DNA from: Lachnospiraceae bacterium
GTDB taxonomy: Bacteria; Bacillota_A; Clostridia; Lachnospirales; Lachnospiraceae
Length of the DNA: 7,986 nucleotides
Direction of reading: 5' to 3'
Assembly: GCA_017652545.1 (NCBI GenBank)
Contig: JAGCAV010000058.1
Location: 1 to 7,986 of the forward strand
The notes below the pieces were generated by a model. It was not told the origin of the DNA. It saw only the letters and a program-made list of their open reading frames with translations, and did no database searches. Each line of letters begins with the position of its first letter. Within the stretch, counting starts at the first letter, position 1. Position numbers and translations under genes: made by a program. Below are positions 1 to 7,986 of the stretch, in pieces.

Positions 1-394
1 GCGCAAAAAACTCGATCTGGCTGATGATGAACTGATCACCGAGATCCTGCTGCCAAAGGAGGGACTTGAAAACTACTACTATGAGAAAGTCGGCGGCAGG
101 AATGCGCTGGCCATCTCCCGCGTATCCTTTGCCGGCATCTACGCCGAAAAAGACGGCAGGATCACCAATATCGCCGCCGCCTTCGGCGCGGTAGCTGAGG
201 TCGTTCTGCGTTACAGGGACATTGAAGAGATGCTGATCGGAAAGACCGTTGAGGAAGCCAGAGAATTAAAGAGTGCTTTCCTGAACGCCTACGCTGACCG
301 TATGACCCTGACCCGCGGCCGTGTCAGCGCCGAATACCGCAAGGCTGTGTGCATGAATCTGCTGAGTGAATTCCTGGCAAAGTTTGGTATCTGA
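1..394 (+). CDS. FAD-binding subunit of a molybdenum hydroxylase (xanthine dehydrogenase type), C-terminal part
   Basis: Only the last 130 residues are present; the reading frame enters from the left edge (first full codon at base 2) and stops with TGA at 392-394. The stretch after residue 27 (EKVGGRNALAISRVSFAG) followed by ITNIAAAFGAVAE matches the style of the CO dehydrogenase flavoprotein C-terminal domain that ends the FAD subunit of xanthine dehydrogenases. Family members are usually about 260-290 residues, so roughly half is missing, including the N-terminal FAD-binding domain. In the complex this subunit takes electrons from the [2Fe-2S] clusters and passes them to NAD+ or another acceptor. 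The next gene, 55 bases downstream on the same strand, encodes the Fe-S and molybdopterin parts, so the two are very likely co-transcribed. The closest type is probably the FAD subunit found with selenium-dependent molybdenum hydroxylases (YgfM-like). That subtype is an inference from the neighbour. Confidence 0.85.
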   Translation, partial: RKKLDLADDELITEILLPKEGLENYYYEKVGGRNALAISRVSFAGIYAEKDGRITNIAAAFGAVAEVVLRYRDIEEMLIGKTVEEARELKSAFLNAYADRMTLTRGRVSAEYRKAVCMNLLSEFLAKFGI

Positions 395-434
395 CAAGTC
401 AGAAGGAACCCGTCGAACCACCTGCTGTTTTCAT

Positions 435-443
435 GAGAGGGAG
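435..443 (+). promoter_or_regulatory. Ribosome binding site that fixes the hydroxylase start
   Basis: GAGAGGGAG lies six bases before ATG 450. It supports that ATG over the in-frame GTG at 366, which would overlap the upstream gene and add 28 residues not resembling the family. Confidence 0.7.
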
Positions 444-449
444 ACTGCT

Positions 450-3020
450 ATGTATATTGTCAACATAAACGGCAGAGACTACGAAGCTGCTCATGACAAA
501 AAGCTGCTGCGTTTTCTTCGCGACGATCTTCATCTGACCGCCGCGAAGGACGGCTGTTCCGAGGGTGTGTGCGGTACCTGTACCGTGCTGGCAGACGGAC
601 AGAAGATCAAAGCCTGTGTCGTTCCCCTGAGCAAGCTGGAAGGAAAGAAGATCCTTACGGTAGAGGGCATTGATCCTGAGGAAATGAAGGTCTATGAGCA
701 CTGCTTTGCCGAGGCCGGCGCTGTGCAGTGCGGCTACTGCATCCCGGGTATGATCATCTCAGCCAAGAGCCTGCTTGACGTCAACCTGAACCCAACACGC
801 GCCGACGTCAAGAAAGCGATCAGAGGCAATCTCTGCCGCTGTACCGGCTATAAGAAAATCGAGGACGCCATTCTGATGGCTGCGGATTTCTTCCGTGAAA
901 AACGCGCAATTCCACAGCAGCCGAAGACGCTGCATATGAATGAGCACGCCCAGCGCATCGATGCAAAGGAAAAGGTCAACGGCACCGGTCTGTTTGCGGA
1001 TGATCTGTATCCGGAAGGCATGATCTACGCCAAAGGACTGTATTCCAGATATCCCCGCGCAAGGATCAATGCCATCGATGTCTCACAGGCGCTTCAGCAT
1101 CCTGACTGTGTGGAGATTCTCACGAAGGAAGCCGTTCCCTGCAACAAGATCGGTCACATTAAGCAGGACTGGGATGTGATGATGGGGCCGGGCGACATTA
1201 CCCGCTATGTGGGCAACGTTCTGGCCGTGGTCGCCGCGACTAAGCAGGAGTCCCTGCAGGAGATCTGTGATCTCATCGAGGTGGATTACACTGAACTGAC
1301 GCCGCTGTCCAGTCCCTATGAAGCGCTCAGGGGCGATGCCCCGCTGATTCATGAGGACGGGAACATCATGAGCCGTGCCAATCTTGTCCGGGGCAACGCT
1401 GATGAGGCGATCAGAAATTCCAGGTATGTTGTGACCCGCAAGTACAAAACAAGCTGGCAGGAGCATGGCTTCATGGAGCCGGAGTGCGCCGTGGCGATCC
1501 CCGAGGGGGATGATGGCCTGCTCATCTACACATCAAGCCAGTCGATCTACGACGTACAGCGTGAATGCGCAAAGATGCTTCAGCTTCCGCCCGAAAAGGT
1601 GCATGTACGCGCTCCGCTGGTGGGAGGCGGCTTCGGCGGCAAGGAGGATATGAGTGTCCAGCCCTATGCCGCTCTGATGGCCTGGTATACCAAACGTCCT
1701 GTCAAGGTCAGGTACAGCAGGCAGGAATCTCTGGACTATCATGTCAAGCGTCATCCCATGGAGATGGAGTTTACGACTGCCTGTGATGAAAACGGCATCC
1801 TGACCGCCATGAAAGGCGTCATCATCGCCGACACGGGTGCGTATGCCAGCCTCGGCGGACCGGTGCTGCATCGTGCCTGCACCCATGCGGCCGGTCCCTA
1901 TAATTATCAGAACATCGACATTTTCGGCATGTCGGTCTATACGAACAATGTTGTTTCCGGTGCCTTCCGCGGTTTCGGTGTCACGCAGAGCTGTTTTGCG
2001 ACCGAAATGAACATCAATCTGCTCGCCGAGATGGCCGGCATTGACCCGTGGGAGTTCAGGCGGCGCAATGCCATCAAGCCCGGTGATGTACTGCCCAACG
2101 GCCAGACAGCCGATCCCAACACCAACATGGCCGCCTGCCTGGACGCGGTGAAGGATGAATTCTACGCTCATCCCTATGCAGGCATCGCCTGCGGGTTCAA
2201 GAATTCCGGGACCGGCATGGGCAAAAAGGATATCGGTAGAGTGCTGCTGTCTGTGGAAGAGGGGAAGATCCATATTCGTACCTCTGCCGCCTGCATGGGG
2301 CAGGGCATCGGTCAGATGGTGCTGACGGAGATCTGCCATGTGACGGAACTGGATCCGGCACTGTTTGTGTTCGAGCGCTCCGACACTGTCCGTACCCCGG
2401 ACGCCGGCACTTCCACAGCATCCCGTCAGACGGTCATGACCGGAGAGGCAGCCAGGCGTGCGGGTGAAAAGCTTAAGCTGGCACTGGATGCAGGCAGGAC
2501 GATATCAGATCTGGAGGGGCAGGAGTTCTTCGGGGAATATTCGGCAAAGACGGATCCGCTTGGAGCCATCAAGGAGAATCCTGTCAGCCATATTTCTTAT
2601 TCTTACGGCGCCCAGGTCATCATTCTGAATGATGATGGAAAGATCACAAAAGCGGTTTCCGCCTTTGATGTCGGCACACCGGTCAACATCCAGTCCGTCG
2701 AAGGTCAGATCGAGGGCGGTATGGTCATGGGCATCGGGTACGGTGTCACTGAAAAATACGAGTGTGTTGACGGCATTCCGAAGAGCAGGTTCGGTACCAT
2801 CGGCTTTATGCGTGCCGACGCCGCGCCTGAACTTGAAGTCATCCTGTGTGAACCGGAAGAAAAGGACAAGCTTCCGTTCTCCCTCGGAGCCAAGGGCTGC
2901 GGTGAACCGTGCATGATTCCGACAGCGCCGGCCTGCGCTCACGCCTACTACCGCTGGGATGGCCGCTTCCGCCAGCAGCTTCCGCTGGAAGACACGCCTT
3001 ACCGCAAGGCAAAGAAATAA
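450..3020 (+). CDS. Fused [2Fe-2S]/molybdopterin subunit of a probable selenium-dependent xanthine dehydrogenase-type hydroxylase
   Basis: An 856-residue protein hydroxylating a purine or similar heterocycle with water as oxygen source, in the cytoplasm. Residues 1-75 form a plant-type ferredoxin domain with Cys36, 41, 44 and 56. Residues 76-150 form the second [2Fe-2S] domain with Cys94, 97, 129 and 131 (QCGYC, then CRCTG). From about residue 165 the molybdenum part begins (RIDAKEKVNGTGLFADDL). It shows QEHGFMEPE at 337-345, VGGGFGGKE at 391-399, AFRGFG with Arg507, MGQG with Gln618, and KGCGEP with the expected catalytic Glu819. Length and the fusion of Fe-S and Mo parts without FAD match the Firmicute selenium-dependent xanthine dehydrogenase family, where a labile selenium atom, not selenocysteine, sits at the Mo site. 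No in-frame TGA is seen. The FAD subunit is the preceding gene. The substrate could be xanthine, hypoxanthine or another purine; selenium dependence is inferred from family resemblance. Confidence 0.9.
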   Translation: MYIVNINGRDYEAAHDKKLLRFLRDDLHLTAAKDGCSEGVCGTCTVLADGQKIKACVVPLSKLEGKKILTVEGIDPEEMKVYEHCFAEAGAVQCGYCIPGMIISAKSLLDVNLNPTRADVKKAIRGNLCRCTGYKKIEDAILMAADFFREKRAIPQQPKTLHMNEHAQRIDAKEKVNGTGLFADDLYPEGMIYAKGLYSRYPRARINAIDVSQALQHPDCVEILTKEAVPCNKIGHIKQDWDVMMGPGDITRYVGNVLAVVAATKQESLQEICDLIEVDYTELTPLSSPYEALRGDAPLIHEDGNIMSRANLVRGNADEAIRNSRYVVTRKYKTSWQEHGFMEPECAVAIPEGDDGLLIYTSSQSIYDVQRECAKMLQLPPEKVHVRAPLVGGGFGGKEDMSVQPYAALMAWYTKRPVKVRYSRQESLDYHVKRHPMEMEFTTACDENGILTAMKGVIIADTGAYASLGGPVLHRACTHAAGPYNYQNIDIFGMSVYTNNVVSGAFRGFGVTQSCFATEMNINLLAEMAGIDPWEFRRRNAIKPGDVLPNGQTADPNTNMAACLDAVKDEFYAHPYAGIACGFKNSGTGMGKKDIGRVLLSVEEGKIHIRTSAACMGQGIGQMVLTEICHVTELDPALFVFERSDTVRTPDAGTSTASRQTVMTGEAARRAGEKLKLALDAGRTISDLEGQEFFGEYSAKTDPLGAIKENPVSHISYSYGAQVIILNDDGKITKAVSAFDVGTPVNIQSVEGQIEGGMVMGIGYGVTEKYECVDGIPKSRFGTIGFMRADAAPELEVILCEPEEKDKLPFSLGAKGCGEPCMIPTAPACAHAYYRWDGRFRQQLPLEDTPYRKAKK

Positions 3021-3046
3021 TTGACCGAAGGTCGTAAAACAAAAAA

Positions 3047-3080
3047 GCGGGTGCTTCTGTTAAGAGGCACCCGTCTTTTT
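3047..3080. terminator. Bidirectional rho-independent terminator between converging genes
   Basis: CGGGTGC (3048-3054) pairs with GCACCCG (3067-3073). The stem extends by four more pairs (TTCT with AGAG, one of them G-T) around a GTTA loop. On the + strand it is followed by TCTTTTT. On the - strand the same hairpin is followed by CTTTTTTG. It can therefore end both the hydroxylase unit and the opposing three-gene unit. Confidence 0.9.
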
Positions 3081-3097
3081 ATGTGCACTGATGAAGG

Positions 3098-3745
3098 TCA
3101 GCTCATATACAGCTTCGCATAGAACGCGGTTTCATTCTGCATGATCATGATGTCCAGTGCCCGGAGACAGTCATCCAGGGTCTCCGGATGATGCGCCGCG
3201 TTCTCATTGATGGCTGCGACTGCATTTTCAAAGCAGAGATAAGGCATGGCGCAGGGCAGTGTTACCGTCATGCGCTTGGCGGTCTCATAGCCAGCCCGGA
3301 AAAAGCGGCCAAGCTCTGCGCCGTGTACATCTGTCAGATCGGCGGTAAAGAAGCAGCCCCTCACCGTCAGATGCCGCAGCAGCTTGATTTCACGGGCGTA
3401 ACGGACCAGTTCATCCGGCATGACCACATCTTTAACGCGGGCAAAACCGGGTGCCTGCAGCCTCAGCCCGACTTTGCATATTCCTTTGATCCCGGCACGG
3501 TCAGCTTCCTGATCCAGAAACCGCAGATCTTCCAGGCTGCCTGCCACAAAACGGCAGCGGTCCGCCACCAGACTCACGCCGGTGTCAAAAGGAGACAGAT
3601 AAAAGATATTCTCCGGCAGATACCCGGCATCCGATGCCGACAGAGCCATGGCGCCCGTACGGACAAGTATACCGTCCTCTGATCCTTCCTTTTCCTCTCC
3701 GGCAAGCAGGCGAAGTGCCGGCCTTTTAGTTATCCAGGATTTCAT
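3098..3745 (-). CDS. Unrecognised 215-residue protein, faintly like a PLP-barrel (fold III) enzyme
   Basis: Last gene of the leftward unit. The ATG at 3745 is preceded by GGGAAGGT (3755-3762) with nine bases between, a good ribosome binding site, and the stop is just before the shared terminator. No signal peptide or membrane helix is seen. The middle (PENIFYLSP, then a short strand, then VAGSLEDLRFLDQEA, then KVGLRLQAPGF) recalls the alternating beta/alpha pattern of alanine racemase and diaminopimelate decarboxylase barrels, where such strands read as 'valley of SLEEL ... LRVNPG'. However, the N-terminal lysine motif that binds PLP is not visible, and the protein is about half the usual length. 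It could be a degenerate, non-catalytic relative or an unrelated fold. The gap to the upstream gene is 44 bases, so co-transcription with the radical SAM pair is likely. Its role is unknown. Confidence 0.75.
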   Translation of the reverse strand: MKSWITKRPALRLLAGEEKEGSEDGILVRTGAMALSASDAGYLPENIFYLSPFDTGVSLVADRCRFVAGSLEDLRFLDQEADRAGIKGICKVGLRLQAPGFARVKDVVMPDELVRYAREIKLLRHLTVRGCFFTADLTDVHGAELGRFFRAGYETAKRMTVTLPCAMPYLCFENAVAAINENAAHHPETLDDCLRALDIMIMQNETAFYAKLYMS

Positions 3746-3789
3746 TTACTTGATACCTTCCCATATGCACCGGCAGCATCCGCCCGGGT

Positions 3790-5052
3790 TCATTCTTTGT
3801 TCAGACTCCTGACGTGTATCCGTCCTTTGTGGATACTCTCCCTGAAGAAATCCTTCACCGAACATCCGGCTCGTCCTGAAGAAGCGCAGGCACAGGCGCA
3901 GGCACAGGAAGAAGCGCAGGCGCACGAGGAAGCACAGGCACAGGAGGAAGCGCAGGAAGAACGGTGAGATGAGCCTCCCGACCCGGAAGATCGTGAAGAG
4001 TGAGACCTGGCCACCGGAACATTGATCACATTTACATGAATATATGTATTCGGCGAATTGCCATAGCGATAGGTCCCGTTCTTCGTATACTTTTCCGGTT
4101 CACTGATCTGGTCTTCCTCAACGATTTCCTTGCTCTTGATCATACTGCGCCCGCAGTACGCACAATTGTCCTTGCCTTCTTCACGTACCGCTCCGCAGTT
4201 CGGACAGTTCGCATAATACTCGATCCTGGTACGCGTGATCTTCTTTTTGGTTTCCTGGCCGGAACCGAAACCGGAGCCCTTTGCGATCCAGCGGATGAAT
4301 TTGAACAGCAGGATAAAGGGCGTGGCAACCAATCCCAGTAAAACGACCAGTCCGAGAATACCGAAGATCACATCGGACACGGTCAGCGGTTCTTTTTCAT
4401 TTCCACCGCCGGTCGCACCGCCTGCCTGCCTTTCAGGGTCAAAGCCGAACGTGTCATTCGGATAGGTGACCGAGATCGTATATCTGCCGCCGGAAGAGAG
4501 TGATGTCTCAAATGTCAGGTAACCGTCTTCCTGAAAACAGTCAGGCTGCCAGGCCCCGGCATTATCCGCGTTCCACCGGATCGCAAGAGATCTGATGTCC
4601 ATACCGTCGAACCATGCAGGTGTAAACGTATAGACCGTTTCTCCTTCGACCCATTTGTCGATCTGATACATATGGTCCTGTACCATGGAAAAATCGATGC
4701 CGACAACTTCTCCTTCTCCATAAGGACGGTCAAGATAGATGTTCAGTGAACTGCCCTTATCTTCGATATGATCGATCGTATTGCTGATCGGTGTGATGTT
4801 TTCATGATACCGGTTCGGCACGCCCAGGTCGATCCATTCCAGCTTTCCGATCGAATCATCCAGTACTTCCCAGTCAATGTGGTATGTCATATCAAGAGAA
4901 GCATCTTCATTGACATCGACCGTGATCGTGAAATCAAGGATCTGATCGGTCGGCGCGGCAAGAACCGGCATCACCGCGGCGCAGAGCAGGAGCAGTAAAA
5001 GACCCGGATAAAGGAAGAGATACCTGATAGAAGATTTTATGGAATGCTTCAT
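3790..5052 (-). CDS. Membrane protein with DUF2207-like ectodomain, zinc ribbon and Cys/Ala-repeat tail; candidate radical SAM substrate
   Basis: A 420-residue protein. Residues 1-33 are a signal peptide (Lys/Arg start, then a run of Leu, ending PVLAA). Residues 36-200 are a beta-rich ectodomain recalling DUF2207 proteins (TVDVNEDASLDMTYHIDWEV, LEWIDLGVPNRY). A Gly-rich linker leads to one membrane helix at about 226-250, followed by basic residues (KFIRWIAK) that favour a cytoplasmic C-terminus. A zinc ribbon follows: Cys283, 286, 297 and 300 (CPNCG, CAYCG). After a Ser/Gly/His-rich linker comes the tail at 365-392: SSCA, SSCACA, SSCACA, SSCACACACA. Its cysteines are 367, 371, 373, 377, 379, 383, 385, 387 and 389, then Cys397 in RAGCSVKDFF and a basic end. 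The start was chosen at ATG 5052 because a strong ribosome binding site precedes it; it overlaps the radical SAM stop by four bases. An upstream in-frame ATG at 5118 would put 22 residues before the signal peptide. Function unknown; likely a modified membrane protein. Confidence 0.9.
   Translation of the reverse strand: MKHSIKSSIRYLFLYPGLLLLLLCAAVMPVLAAPTDQILDFTITVDVNEDASLDMTYHIDWEVLDDSIGKLEWIDLGVPNRYHENITPISNTIDHIEDKGSSLNIYLDRPYGEGEVVGIDFSMVQDHMYQIDKWVEGETVYTFTPAWFDGMDIRSLAIRWNADNAGAWQPDCFQEDGYLTFETSLSSGGRYTISVTYPNDTFGFDPERQAGGATGGGNEKEPLTVSDVIFGILGLVVLLGLVATPFILLFKFIRWIAKGSGFGSGQETKKKITRTRIEYYANCPNCGAVREEGKDNCAYCGRSMIKSKEIVEEDQISEPEKYTKNGTYRYGNSPNTYIHVNVINVPVARSHSSRSSGSGGSSHRSSCASSCACASSCACASSCACACACASSGRAGCSVKDFFRESIHKGRIHVRSLNKE
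3877..3960 (-). repeat. Cys/Ala/Ser repeat region within the membrane protein
   Basis: The 84 bases encode residues 365-392, a degenerate repeat of SSCACA units with one four-cysteine run near the end. Codons for each residue vary (TGT and TGC; GCC and GCT; TCC, TCT, TCG and TCA). The protein pattern is therefore more regular than the DNA pattern, arguing for selection on the peptide rather than recent slippage. Confidence 0.85.
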
Positions 5053-6449
5053 TGGCAGCACCTCCTTAACGGACATTGGCCGGTCATTTCGGAAGAGTAG
5101 TTCCTGTGGGTGACACATGCTTCACTGTCCCAGATCGACTGCCAGTCATCATCAAGCATGCTTCCCAGCGGCTGATCGGAAAGCCAGCTCTGGCATGGGA
5201 CAACATTTCCCCCGGGAGTAACGGCCATATTGGAAAGGCAGGCGCCGCAGGAAGGCGCCGGAATGTTCAGTTCCTCAAATACGCTTTCTTCGATCCAGCC
5301 CGGAGATGTGAACGCGATCTCCATGCCGTTTGCATGACAGTAAGCGACGCTTTCCCGAAGGATCTTTTCCAGCTGATCGCCTGACAGCTGAAGCCGTTCG
5401 GAATCTGGTCCTGCAGCGTTCCCGGTCGTGATCAGGCCCGAACAGGTCACATAGATCACACCCTTCTCGTGGAGTAATTCGAGCGTTCTGACATAGTCCC
5501 GGTTCAGCGTACAGAGCGGCGTATTAATGCTGACGGACAGACCTGCAGCCAGCGCGTTTTCGATACCGCTGAGAGTATGATCGTACTGCGGCGCCCCGAC
5601 AAGTCTGTTATGAACGGCAGGGTCCTGAGAGTAGAATGTGATCTGGACACTGTCAAGTTCAGCCCTGCGCAGTTCATCGCAGTAAGCCTTTGTAAGCCTG
5701 ATCCCATTCGTATTCAGACGTGAAATGAACCACCGTGCCTCGCTGATGAGGGTGACCAGGTCTTCCCGCATGGTCGGTTCGCCGCCGGTAAAGGTTACCT
5801 GGGGAATCCCGGCTGCACGGCATTTTTCAAGTATCCTGATCCAGTCCTGTGTCGAAAGTTCTTCCTCATCCGAAAGCATCTGTCCGGCAGCGTAGCAGTG
5901 GATGCATTTCTGATTGCAGTGCCATTTTCCGTTTTTGGTCATGGCACTCACCATCAGATCCATACGATGCGGTGCATTCATGTACCGGGCATATTCCCCG
6001 AGACTCATATAGTGGACTTCGGTCGTCACTTCTTCCCGGTAAGCGATCTGCTTCATTGTCTGGTAGATCGTTCTGATATCTTCCCTGATCCGCTTTCCGG
6101 ACAGGATGGGAATGATCTGCCTGACATTTTCAGCCGTCTTATCGAGAATTCCCTGAATCTGGGCTTCACCGATCTCTTTGCCGTCATAACGATTGGTTTC
6201 CCGGATCATCTCCGCCAGGATCACGGCCCAGGCAAAATTGACAGGGACGACATCTGTTCCGTTGATGATCGCAACACTGGGGTTCAGCGCATTTTCTTCT
6301 TTTTTCGGCGGGATCAGATGGATCCTGATCGCCCCCGGCCCGTCAGGATTCAACGTCGTATGAAGGACTTCATCAAAGACAGAATCCATGTAGGAGAAGA
6401 TCCTTCTGACTGTTTTTGTCTTTCTGAATAATCTTGGTACATAAACCAT
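5049..6449 (-). CDS. Radical SAM/SPASM enzyme, candidate maturase of the Cys/Ala-tail protein
   Basis: A 466-residue soluble protein. Cys178, 182 and 185 (CNQKCIHCY) form the CxxxCxxC motif that binds the SAM-coordinating [4Fe-4S] cluster. TGGEPT at 221-226 is the SAM-amine contact, and RLNTNGIRLT and SVQITFYSQDPAVHN continue the partial TIM barrel. The C-terminal part has Cys401, 404, 419, 445, 459, 464 and 465 (CGACLSNMAVTPGGNVVPC, then CPLRRCC), the pattern of a SPASM region holding auxiliary Fe-S clusters. Such enzymes modify peptides or proteins, for example by Cys thioether bonds. About 165 residues precede the radical SAM core. Residues 59-115 could be a PqqD-like recognition domain, but the match is weak. 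The start at 6449 has GGGAGGGA (6457-6464) seven bases upstream. First gene of the leftward unit; its stop overlaps the next start (ATGA). The substrate is inferred from gene order. Alternatives are a cofactor or heme-modifying SPASM enzyme. Confidence 0.92.
   Translation of the reverse strand: MVYVPRLFRKTKTVRRIFSYMDSVFDEVLHTTLNPDGPGAIRIHLIPPKKEENALNPSVAIINGTDVVPVNFAWAVILAEMIRETNRYDGKEIGEAQIQGILDKTAENVRQIIPILSGKRIREDIRTIYQTMKQIAYREEVTTEVHYMSLGEYARYMNAPHRMDLMVSAMTKNGKWHCNQKCIHCYAAGQMLSDEEELSTQDWIRILEKCRAAGIPQVTFTGGEPTMREDLVTLISEARWFISRLNTNGIRLTKAYCDELRRAELDSVQITFYSQDPAVHNRLVGAPQYDHTLSGIENALAAGLSVSINTPLCTLNRDYVRTLELLHEKGVIYVTCSGLITTGNAAGPDSERLQLSGDQLEKILRESVAYCHANGMEIAFTSPGWIEESVFEELNIPAPSCGACLSNMAVTPGGNVVPCQSWLSDQPLGSMLDDDWQSIWDSEACVTHRNYSSEMTGQCPLRRCCQ
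5059..5067 (-). promoter_or_regulatory. Strong ribosome binding site embedded in the end of the radical SAM gene
   Basis: Read on the - strand, AAGGAGGTG stands just before the ATG at 5052 (eight bases after GGAGG). The same bases encode the Leu-Arg-Arg-Cys near the end of the radical SAM enzyme. Together with the ATGA overlap it points to coupled but strong translation of the second gene. Confidence 0.85.
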
Positions 6450-6456
6450 GTTCTTG

Positions 6457-6464
6457 TCCCTCCC
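6457..6464 (-). promoter_or_regulatory. Ribosome binding site of the radical SAM gene
   Basis: GGGAGGGA on the - strand, seven bases before the ATG at 6449. It supports this start; no competing upstream start with a comparable site is seen. Confidence 0.7.
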
Positions 6465-6472
6465 TGGACATC

Positions 6473-6501
6473 ATGATAACAACAGCCTTGCGTAATTGCA
6501 A
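6473..6501 (-). promoter_or_regulatory. Possible sigma-A promoter of the leftward unit
   Basis: On the - strand a -35-like TTGCAA (6496-6501) and a -10-like TATCAT (6473-6478) are separated by 17 bases. The -10 matches TATAAT at five of six positions, the -35 matches TTGACA at four. The implied leader is short, about 17 bases, just enough for the ribosome binding site. Confidence 0.45.
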
Positions 6502-6503
6502 GG
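6486..6503. promoter_or_regulatory. Inverted repeat overlapping the leftward -35 region, possible operator
   Basis: CCTTGC and GCAAGG form a perfect 6-base inverted repeat around GTAATT. It overlaps the candidate -35 of the radical SAM unit, where a repressor would block it. No poly-T follows, so it is not a terminator. The regulator is unknown. Confidence 0.35.
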
Positions 6504-6523
6504 TGAAACATGAACGCAAAAGT

Positions 6524-6538
6524 CAGACACCCTGTCTG
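6524..6538. promoter_or_regulatory. Second inverted repeat in the divergent region, possible operator
   Basis: CAGACA and TGTCTG form a perfect 6-base inverted repeat around CCC. It lies 20 bases from the first one and about 65 bases before the -10 of the rightward gene. The two repeats differ in sequence, so they would bind different proteins if functional. Short repeats of this kind can also occur by chance. Confidence 0.3.
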
Positions 6539-6604
6539 TGTATACCGGGGAGATAAAAGGATTTCGGAAACAGCATAAAAAAGATGGCGCACGGCAGAAA
6601 AAAA

Positions 6605-6613
6605 TGGTAAAAT
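6605..6613 (+). promoter_or_regulatory. Probable extended -10 promoter of the CmpB-type gene
   Basis: TGGTAAAAT fits the TGnTATAAT extended -10 pattern common in Firmicutes. No clear -35 lies 17 bases upstream, which extended -10 promoters can do without. It would give a leader of about 70 bases before the start at 6689. Confidence 0.5.
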
Positions 6614-6688
6614 CCTAACATTCCTGTGAAAACAGGGAAATACCGGGTCTTGTTGCATAGATCCATACAGACAGAAATGAGGAATGTG

Positions 6689-7636
6689 ATGACAGAATAC
6701 TGGATCAACATTATACTGCTGTTTTTTGTTTATGCCTTTGGGGGCTGGTGCATGGAGGTCATCCTCAAATACAGGCAATATCACCGGTTCATCAACCGGG
6801 GATTCCTGACAGGACCTGTATGCCCGATCTACGGATGCGGGGCAGTTCTGATCACCGTGGTGATCGGAAATCTTGCCAGTGTCGAATCCGGACTTGTCAT
6901 GACCTTTGCCCTGTCCTTTGTGATCTGCGGTCTCGTGGAATATCTCACAAGCCTGGTCCTGGAAAAGATCTTCCATGCCCGCTGGTGGGATTACAGCCAG
7001 AAGCCGATGAATCTGCACGGAAGGGTCTGGATCGGAAATCTTATCCTTTTCGGTCTGGGCGGTGTTGCGATCATTCATATTCTGAATCCCGGGATCTACA
7101 AGGTTCTCGGTCTCATTCCCCTGAAAACCAGAGAAGTCATTATGACAATTCTTCTGGTGATCATTGCCGCGGATTTTGTGGTCTCTTATTTCGTACTGAA
7201 GCTGGTCAAGGTCGGAGTAGACAGTTCCGAAGCGGACAATACCGAAGAAATCAGCAAGGAAGTACACCAGCTGCTTACGAACAGGTCCTATTTCCATAAG
7301 CGTTTTGTTGACGCCTATCCTGAGGTCGTTTACAGAACGGAACGTGTGCAGGCCAGACTTGCCGCCATCAAGGCGGAAACAGAGCGTATGCGTCAGGAGG
7401 CAGAAAAGCGTCTTGAGGCACAGAAAGGAAAAGTTGCTGCCAGCCTTGAGCCCGTTCACATGATCCGCGCAGACCTGATCGGCAAACAGGATGAGCTGAT
7501 CGGCATGCTTTATGATGAAAAAACGGCTACGATCGAGATGAAAAACCTGAAATCGGAGATCGACAGGCAGAAAAACCGTCTCGAATCACATGTGCTGGTC
7601 AAATATCCTTATGGGAAACCAAAGAAGACGACATGA
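6689..7636 (+). CDS. CmpB-type (PF06541) membrane protein with a C-terminal coiled coil
   Basis: A 315-residue protein usually annotated as 'putative ABC transporter permease', though the biochemical role of the family is not established. About five membrane helices are visible, near residues 5-24, 45-62, 68-84, 113-132 and 150-170. The family signature is clear: GGWCMEV at 18-24, FINRGFLTGPVCPIYG at 34-49, VEYLTSLVLEKIF at 83-95, then RWWDYS and NLHGRV. Residues from about 175 on are soluble and charged. The part around 225-265 (repeated Glu, Arg, Ala, Lys) should form a coiled coil, and the protein ends in a basic KPKKTT. ATG 6689 is preferred because AGGA (6680-6683) lies five bases before it and the first helix follows at once. 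In-frame ATGs at 6626 and 6677 would add residues with no family resemblance. No ABC ATPase gene is nearby. Divergent from the radical SAM unit. Confidence 0.85.
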   Translation: MTEYWINIILLFFVYAFGGWCMEVILKYRQYHRFINRGFLTGPVCPIYGCGAVLITVVIGNLASVESGLVMTFALSFVICGLVEYLTSLVLEKIFHARWWDYSQKPMNLHGRVWIGNLILFGLGGVAIIHILNPGIYKVLGLIPLKTREVIMTILLVIIAADFVVSYFVLKLVKVGVDSSEADNTEEISKEVHQLLTNRSYFHKRFVDAYPEVVYRTERVQARLAAIKAETERMRQEAEKRLEAQKGKVAASLEPVHMIRADLIGKQDELIGMLYDEKTATIEMKNLKSEIDRQKNRLESHVLVKYPYGKPKKTT

Positions 7637-7682
7637 TGAAGTCATCAGGCTGTCGTGCAGGCAATGAATGGATCAAATGAAA

Positions 7683-7697
7683 GCCCCAAGGCGGGGC
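7683..7697 (+). other. GC-rich hairpin just before the terminator
   Basis: GCCCC and GGGGC pair around AAGGC, 46 bases after the CmpB-type stop. It has no T-run of its own. It may help termination, or protect the 3' end of the message. Confidence 0.45.
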
Positions 7698-7701
7698 CTG
7701 T

Positions 7702-7734
7702 GAAAAAACCCGGCGCGAATGGACGGGTTTTTTC
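7702..7734. terminator. Rho-independent terminator after the CmpB-type gene
   Basis: GAAAAAACCCG (7702-7712) and CGGGTTTTTTC (7724-7734) are perfect 11-base complements around an 11-base loop. The T-run is part of the stem's right arm and continues as CTTT. Its symmetry lets it work on both strands. It isolates the antiporter gene, which therefore needs its own promoter. Between 7735 and 7766 only a TTTAAAAT (7735-7742) resembles a -10, with no matching -35. Confidence 0.8.
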
Positions 7735-7766
7735 TTTAAAATGGAACTGTTGAGGTATCTGGGTCG

Positions 7767-7986
7767 ATGAAAAAACAAAAGCCATTATCCATGCCGGACC
7801 GGAAGAGAAGAGACACCAAATTTCATCACGGCCTGATCACGGTGACTGCCGTCATCTTCTGTATGTTCCTGGGAATCGTACGATTTGGGAGCGGTCCGCA
7901 GGTCCCTCTAGTTTGTGCCTGCCTTTGTGCGGGCCTGATGGCCTTCCACCTGGGGTATTCCTGGAATGACATCCTTCAGGGAATGA
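7767..7986 (+). CDS. NhaC-type Na+/H+ antiporter, N-terminal part
   Basis: The first 73 residues, running off the right edge. A basic, hydrophilic start (KKQKPLSMPDRKRRD) precedes a membrane helix at about residues 22-40 and a second at about 45-62. The stretch GSGPQVPLVCACLCAG followed by LGYSWNDILQGM is typical of the beginning of NhaC-family proteins, which exchange Na+ for H+ (or malate and lactate in some members) across the cytoplasmic membrane. Full-length members are about 450-500 residues, so most is missing. GAGG (7752-7755) is 11 bases before the ATG, a rather long spacing. The next in-frame ATG, at residue 9, lacks a better site. The strong terminator upstream makes it a separate transcription unit. 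The substrate cannot be decided from this part. Confidence 0.7.
   Translation, partial: MKKQKPLSMPDRKRRDTKFHHGLITVTAVIFCMFLGIVRFGSGPQVPLVCACLCAGLMAFHLGYSWNDILQGM

Follow-up and report, generated by a model that had tools for sequence, protein, structure and literature searches.

Background

Sactipeptide and ranthipeptide synthases such as SkfB, AlbA, CteB and PapB are radical S-adenosylmethionine (SAM) enzymes of the SPASM/Twitch type found beside a Cys-rich substrate, and their known substrates are short leader-core peptides. In the CX3D/E ranthipeptides, the thioether links run to Asp or Glu. Here we describe a 7,986-nucleotide stretch of DNA from a Lachnospiraceae bacterium (contig JAGCAV010000058.1 of assembly GCA_017652545.1, positions 1 to 7,986; hereafter the window) in which the gene of a SPASM/Twitch-type radical SAM enzyme overlaps that of a Cys-rich partner which, unlike those peptides, is a membrane protein of 420 residues ending in a Cys/Ala tail. 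With a probability of roughly 0.77, we consider that the two form a dedicated enzyme-substrate pair, the tail being thioether-modified and retained on the protein.

The nearest precedent in print concerns MNIO enzymes, which are partly paired with TIGR04222 ("near_uncomplex") membrane proteins bearing Cys-rich C-terminal tails (PMC12452194). As in the window, a large membrane protein with a disordered, Cys-containing C-terminal tail adjoins a modifying enzyme of the kind that acts on ribosomally synthesised and post-translationally modified peptides (RiPPs), and modification of bona fide proteins is put forward by the authors as a possibility. However, their enzyme is an MNIO and not a radical SAM protein, the tails are Ser/Gly-rich and read by them as periplasmic, and the pairing is looser, with 490 of 1,372 genomes lacking an MNIO (PMC12452194, Table 3). 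That article does not mention DUF2207 in its text, and it contains "radical SAM" in the titles of two references only. A radical SAM-stapled protein that stays a functional enzyme subunit is known in QhpC, into which QhpD, a radical SAM enzyme, puts three Cys thioethers; in contrast to the protein studied here, QhpC is a small subunit and not a membrane protein, loses a 28-residue leader to QhpE and uses Asp/Glu acceptors (PMC7876137). The NCBIfam family TIGR04117 ("Cys-Xaa-Xaa-Xaa repeat radical SAM target protein") is likewise a curated family named as a Cys-repeat radical SAM target, but its 98-position model describes a small protein and the window protein does not match it.

The membrane protein itself resembles the DUF2207 protein SMU.243 of Streptococcus mutans, which has a large outer N-terminal part, one or more membrane segments and a C-terminal part with a low-complexity stretch (PMC10457818, which prints "intercellular" for the C-terminal side). 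Loss of SMU.243 lowers acid and peroxide tolerance and biofilm (PMC10457818). We found no published description of the enzyme/tail pair in the open literature, subscription papers and preprints lying outside the scope of the search, and the 2022 radical SAM RiPP atlas (Clark and Seyedsayamdost) could list it. Open-literature searches combining DUF2207 or SCACACA with radical SAM found nothing, and those for the ACHS repeat treated below gave only irrelevant papers.

Results

The initial annotation of the window had described a SPASM-type radical SAM gene sharing an ATGA overlap with the tail gene. The coordinates of both minus-strand genes (enzyme 5049-6449, membrane protein 3790-5052) and the PF04055 and PF13186 matches agree with that description. 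The features of the pair are as follows.

5049-6449, minus strand: radical SAM enzyme of 466 residues with a SPASM/Twitch-type C-terminal region, the proposed tail modifier (PF04055, E 6.5e-21; PF13186, E 1.1e-5)
5895-5918, minus strand: CxxxCxxC motif for the radical SAM [4Fe-4S] cluster (C178, C182, C185), invariant in 26 of 26 aligned enzymes
5070-5249, minus strand: SPASM/Twitch-type region, CX12GX4C (C401, C419) plus C445 and C459 (Pfam, alignment)
5049-5052, minus strand: ATGA overlap of 4 nt between the enzyme and tail-protein genes (sequence)
3790-5052, minus strand: DUF2207-like membrane protein of 420 residues with a Cys/Ala tail, the proposed substrate (PF09972 weak; AlphaFold2 model, mean predicted local distance difference test (pLDDT) 78.5)
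4957-5052, minus strand: N-terminal signal peptide or hydrophobic helix, residues 1-32 by eye, model helix 6-25 (sequence, model)
4459-4947, minus strand: beta-rich ectodomain, residues 36-198 (mean pLDDT of 10-residue blocks 88-98)
4282-4380, minus strand: transmembrane helix, residues 225-257 (model helix; hydrophobic by eye)
4153-4206, minus strand: zinc ribbon CxxC...CxxC (C283, C286, C297, C300; alignment, PF13240 in 15 of 31 members)
3847-3954, minus strand: Cys/Ala tail plus GRAGCSVKDF, residues 367-402, predicted disordered and cytosolic, the proposed modification site

The pairing of the two genes is well supported. At least 68 public loci were found by scanning one genome per species with tail patterns; the titles mark most of them as metagenome-assembled genomes, and contamination may explain labels such as Eggerthellaceae (L023, L030). 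An enzyme homologue adjoins the tail gene at 64 of the 68, 63 times upstream on the same strand and once downstream (L059). Four loci lack an adjoining enzyme: the contigs of L007, L038 and L045 begin inside the tail gene, each of these genomes having one enzyme match elsewhere, and the fourth is L040. The initial annotation had asked whether tail homologues commonly occur without the enzyme and whether the enzyme always adjoins them; only L040 clearly lacks it, and adjacency, though not strictly universal, is the rule. In L040 the tail gene follows an open frame of 1970 residues and precedes a gene resembling argininosuccinate synthase. Two tail proteins accompany one enzyme at L020, L022 and L029, where the second is on the other strand, and in tandem at L051 and L102, the tail genes of L102 preceding the enzyme. 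Enzyme and ectodomain also diverge together (Mantel r 0.87, matched by 0 of 2,000 permutations; 57 loci with both full open reading frames (ORFs)). Clustering of neighbours recovered the enzyme at 54 loci and the tail protein at 52, two further groups overlapping them on the other strand, and disclosed no further gene family shared across the 68 loci; an ABC ATPase family, at seven, came next.

The cleanest test comes from genome surveys, in which enzyme profile A3 and tail profile A2 were run on the same kinds of genome draw around two genomes chosen because they carry the pair, G001 and G008 (source of the Krumholzibacteriia locus L068). In 291 genomes of the class of G001, the enzyme clade (E <= 1e-160) was present in five and the tail in the same five; in 200 genomes of its family, the enzyme was present in 16 and the tail in the same 16, always on the same contig and 0.8-1.3 kb apart. 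For the phylum of G008 (Krumholzibacteriota, 80 genomes), six carried the enzyme and the same six the tail, five of them on one contig. A Fisher test on the family survey gave 5.9e-24, a value too optimistic given the relatedness of the genomes. An extra tail match in G341 (E 2.8e-4) was judged spurious, being a 33-residue frame reading SACACACRCAPGGR and then a stop. At 1e-40 the class survey had 16 positives, namely five of the window clade (1e-226 to 7e-165), ten of a clade associated with ACHS repeats (2e-57 to 3e-44) and one other (2e-41), the clade boundary having been set after the list was seen. Two genomes are irregular: in G204 enzyme and tail are on separate contigs, the enzyme contig holding the start of another tail-protein-like gene, and in G243 a contig end carries the tail apart from its gene, and a single stop interrupts the enzyme frame. 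The earlier proposal that the tail is the enzyme's substrate is thus supported by the pairing, at 64 of 68 loci and in the same genomes of three surveys bar the one spurious match.

The tail does hold nine Cys within exactly 23 residues, as first described, at spacings of 4, 2, 4, 2, 4, 2, 2 and 2; a tenth follows eight residues further, in GRAGC. A search for homologues of the membrane protein, a less biased measure of tail conservation than loci selected by their tails, found 1,963. Among the best 120, to which the counts refer, 94 have the full motif, two a shortened one with GRAGC and 24 none, so that 96 retain the GRAGC ending the Cys/Ala stretch; by eye, the 24 are mostly truncated or not in frame. 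In 31 aligned relatives, selected among those with the whole tail, C383-A390, G393-C397, K400 and F402 (window numbering) are invariant, and CACACA, G, AGC and K are so in 30 tails reaching Krumholzibacteriia and Aminicenantes. We also compared 69 tail ORFs (the window, 67 of the 68 loci and L051 twice; L037 is cut, and second genes on the opposite strand were left out). Being picked by the tail motif at loci found by tail patterns, they show codon variety and not unbiased conservation. Bar one F and one D, all 1,689 residues of their cores come from the set C, A, G, S, R, H and V, and the core Cys number 5-10, with eight in 26 of the ORFs. The tail Cys are encoded by TGT 289 times and TGC 270 times, and all four Ala codons are used; a DNA-repeat artefact was rejected on this variation of Cys and Ala codons.

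The enzyme belongs to the radical SAM superfamily, its CxxxCxxC lying within the PF04055 domain, and scores 26 bits for PF13186 against a cut-off of 21.5, which places it with SPASM proteins. In the 26 aligned enzymes, C401 and C419 are conserved in all, C445 in 25 and C459 in 24; a CX9-15GX4C pattern, CX12GX4C in the window protein, is found in 25 rows. The CX2CX5CX3C of a second auxiliary cluster is absent from the window enzyme, which we therefore regard as Twitch-like, and only two of the 26 rows, both of Krumholzibacteriia, have it. This pattern fits a single putative auxiliary cluster as in the sactisynthase SkfB, a one-cluster Twitch enzyme (PMC6231123) that is also the top match by sequence among solved structures of the PDB (E 5.2e-11). 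In Krumholzibacteriota (L067, L068, L110-L115) the tail reads CACACVSCACACACAGGGGAGCSRK, followed by a CPxC pair, and the enzyme of L067 and L068 keeps the full CX2CX5CX3C.

Known NCBIfam maturases were discarded as the identity of the enzyme, scores being far below the cut-offs among the best 25 of 53 and the best 25 of 86 families. A RiPP recognition element (RRE) in the window-type enzyme was established neither by the family scan nor by hhalign: the alignment of the N-terminus to PqqD scored 25.2 versus at most 17.8 in 30 column shuffles, yet with a probability of 29%, and of 1.5% in a second setting. The N-termini of window-type and ACHS enzymes compared directly gave 0.5%, and two of four ACHS enzymes matched PqqD weakly (best E 0.011).

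The initial annotation had depicted the partner as a 420-residue membrane protein with an ectodomain and a zinc ribbon. The model bears this architecture out for the window, although the ribbon is not general: its Cys are invariant in 31 of 31 aligned rows, chosen for their whole tail, but CxxC..CxxC precedes the tail in 42 of the 69 tail proteins at the loci (those above 200 residues) and is missing in 27, so that it lies outside the core design. Residues 350-403 have pLDDT below 50. Since the signal peptide leads, the beta-rich domain is predicted outside and the zinc ribbon and tail inside the cell, a topology that we infer from the model. The window protein scores 13.2 bits for PF09972 (DUF2207), below the cut-off of 24.4 (E 0.1), and 14 of the 31 relatives match at E <= 10 (best 2.9e-5). 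We call it DUF2207-like because it appears to share the DUF2207 layout despite this score.

Relatives of the ectodomain occur without the enzyme, DUF2207 matches being present in 97 of the 291 class genomes; the DUF2207 model hardly detects the window-type protein, and G001 is unmatched. Around the 30 best DUF2207 places no radical SAM motifs were seen, a result with little power downstream, where fewer than 400 bases follow the gene at 28 of the 29 complete loci. Independently of that motif scan, none of the 29 loci complete at their end among those 30 has a Cys cluster (at least three Cys in the last 60 residues), three having a single Cys. In this these proteins differ from that of the window, their tails being Gly/Ser-rich; most of those inspected end in Gly tails like GGGFSGGGGGGGGGAF. 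The tail, not the ectodomain, is what predicts the enzyme. Since no Cys cluster ends the plain DUF2207 proteins inspected, replacement of a Gly tail by a Cys tail may have accompanied gain of the enzyme.

A parallel case was found among the next-best enzymes of the class survey. In all ten genomes an ORF ending (AC[HSVD][SD])n...ACVSGGA(R/K) accompanies the enzyme, directly preceding it in at least nine; at L089 the frame up to the tail has only 58 residues, and the enzyme frame continues into the next gene. Four full-length ACHS proteins, of 566-594 residues, have a signal-like start, then an ectodomain, what looks by eye like a membrane helix, and an inner domain. All four appear DUF2207-like by sequence; PF09972 matches two (E 0.0012 and 0.0078) and not the other two. 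The end of TIGR04117 weakly matches the tails of three of three ACHS proteins scanned (E 5.5e-4, 0.045 and 0.23; 11.5-20 bits, the cut-off being 50). The residues used are similar in both tail types, A, C, H, S, V, G and R, to which the ACHS tails add D and K. At L097-L100 and several of L080-L088, a membrane protein of about 330 residues follows the ACHS-clade enzyme.

A looser case is L117 (G188), where a TIGR04222 protein with the SSC/CGG-rich ending SSSSCSSSGCSSCGGCGGCGGCGGD directly precedes a gene with radical SAM motifs by eye. One ACHS protein has a weak TIGR04222 match (E 4.2e-5, 23.3 bits against 43). The window protein matches neither TIGR04222 nor TIGR04117, nor any other NCBIfam family at E <= 0.01. 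TIGR04222 as the general frame was rejected, as only two of the 291 class genomes match it, one above the cut-off.

The rest of the window contains the following features.

2-394: end of an FAD-subunit gene, 5' of the xanthine dehydrogenase gene
366-3020, plus strand: selenium-dependent xanthine dehydrogenase (TIGR03311, 1239.9 bits against a cut-off of 830.45)
3098-3745, minus strand: ORF of 215 residues, 44 nt past the tail gene on the same strand, without Pfam or NCBIfam match
6626-7636, plus strand: PF06541 protein (ABC_trans_CmpB, "Putative ABC-transporter type IV"; Pfam), divergent from the enzyme gene

The 215-residue ORF, the PF06541 protein and the xanthine dehydrogenase were discarded as parts of the system, having no homologue at the 68 loci. 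As to the earlier view that no transporter adjoins the pair, the divergent neighbour in the window matches PF06541 but recurs at 0 of the 68 loci, and a different ABC ATPase follows the tail gene at 5.

Discussion

We propose that insertion of the membrane protein would leave the beta-rich domain outside the cell and place the zinc ribbon and Cys/Ala tail in the cytosol, and that the radical SAM enzyme, probably translated from a shared transcript, would recognise the tail, perhaps via the constant GRAGC(S/T)xKDF end. It would then alter the Cys/Ala/Ser stretch, most likely by joining Cys sulfur to a carbon of a nearby Ala, Ser or Gly, with a loss of 2 Da per thioether cross-link. The stiffened tail would most likely stay on the protein and change the working of this DUF2207-type membrane protein. 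Pairing, co-occurrence, the codon-varied tail motif and the architecture are observed, and the inferred parts of this proposal differ in strength. The case for the tail as the substrate is strong, and that for thioether cross-links in it is moderate, as is that for a modified tail functioning in place without release; the cytosolic side of the tail is predicted from the model. If thioethers form, links to Ala, Ser or Gly are likelier than to Asp or Glu, because as a rule only Ala, Ser, Gly, His and Val lie between the Cys.

Several points weigh against this proposal. The loci were found through the tail and the survey centres were chosen for having the pair. Asp/Glu acceptors, as in CX3D/E ranthipeptides, are missing from the tail. 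No NCBIfam equivalog was found for the enzyme, the best 25 of 53 families all scoring far below their cut-offs, and PqqD, as a leader-binding RRE, is not among the best 25 of 30 families listed for the 26 enzyme members. The genome of L040 (G004) has an intact tail gene and no enzyme was found in its 1.7 Mb, a true exception, and the only clear one, unless that genome is incomplete. Lastly, at five of the seven loci with the ABC ATPase family (L019, L020, L022, L029 and L045), a member recognised by motif lies 0.4-1.2 kb after the tail gene, followed by a large partner (about 925 residues in L019); these five loci form one related group, and the linkage is possibly only the shared neighbourhood of related species.

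The chemistry could be other than that proposed, the tail being the substrate but the product arising by epimerisation, Cys oxidation (for example to formylglycine) or formation of C-C bonds, which we hold to be rather unlikely. SPASM/Twitch-type radical SAM enzymes do perform such reactions (PMC8326336, PMC6231123). NCBIfam, moreover, gives only distant matches of the enzyme, to many subfamilies. Yet a dense Cys tail with an alphabet of small residues points to sulfur chemistry on many Cys. Sulfatase-type formylglycine formation uses the motif C-x-P/A-x-R, which was not seen in the tail by eye, and a modification of that type was discarded. A different fate of the tail, as a precursor core cleaved off after modification to serve, or be exported, as a peptide or cofactor, with the membrane protein as a giant leader, would follow RiPP logic; the conserved segment past GRAGC could be a follower, and the ABC ATPase after the tail gene at five of the 68 loci could be read in the same sense. 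With sactipeptide and ranthipeptide systems the loci share the enzyme beside a Cys-rich partner (64 of 68), but that partner is the membrane protein instead of a short leader-core precursor, and no leader common to the 68 was found. We consider this fate improbable, since neither a protease nor an exporter common to the 68 was found; nor was a conserved cleavage site seen by eye. As the tail is also predicted to lie inside the cell, its retention on the protein is the simpler reading.

Cys-rich tails often bind metals, and an unmodified tail might hold a metal or Fe-S cluster or sense redox state, the enzyme acting elsewhere and being merely co-inherited. A zinc ribbon precedes the tail in many members, L040 has the tail without the enzyme, and a DUF2207 protein with a Gly tail contributes to tolerance of acid and peroxide (PMC10457818). 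However, the co-presence of enzyme and tail across distant phyla, together with the ACHS case, is not expected of an unrelated enzyme, and this explanation seems to us quite improbable. As for an assembly or gene-call artefact producing a meaningless low-complexity stretch, many copies do come from metagenome-assembled genomes and contig breaks fall within the repeat in some cases (L079, L095), but one peptide motif is written in varied codons in the 69 tail ORFs and occurs on contigs above 1 Mb (G480, G525), which leaves that possibility practically negligible.

Conclusions

What would be new here is the kind of substrate: radical SAM modification of a Cys-rich stretch is known chemistry, and the enzyme-substrate pair that we favour would apply it to a 420-residue membrane protein. 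Whether several phyla run a general tail-modification system for membrane proteins of the DUF2207/TIGR04222 type is to us an evenly balanced question. In such a system, the Gly-rich cytosolic tail of ordinary members would give way in others to Cys tails of the (CA)n-GRAGC, (ACHS)n or (CGG)n type, each paired with a radical SAM enzyme encoded beside it, and once modified the tail would be a permanent cross-linked cytosolic module, part of the protein and not a natural product. The two-gene unit with its simple motif is amenable to testing. Work on peptide-modifying radical SAM enzymes has centred on their role in making small bioactive peptides and cofactors; if our proposal is true, their chemistry extends to permanent parts of the cell envelope, and the pairing would give an unassigned enzyme clade a testable role and provide a handle on the widespread DUF2207 proteins.

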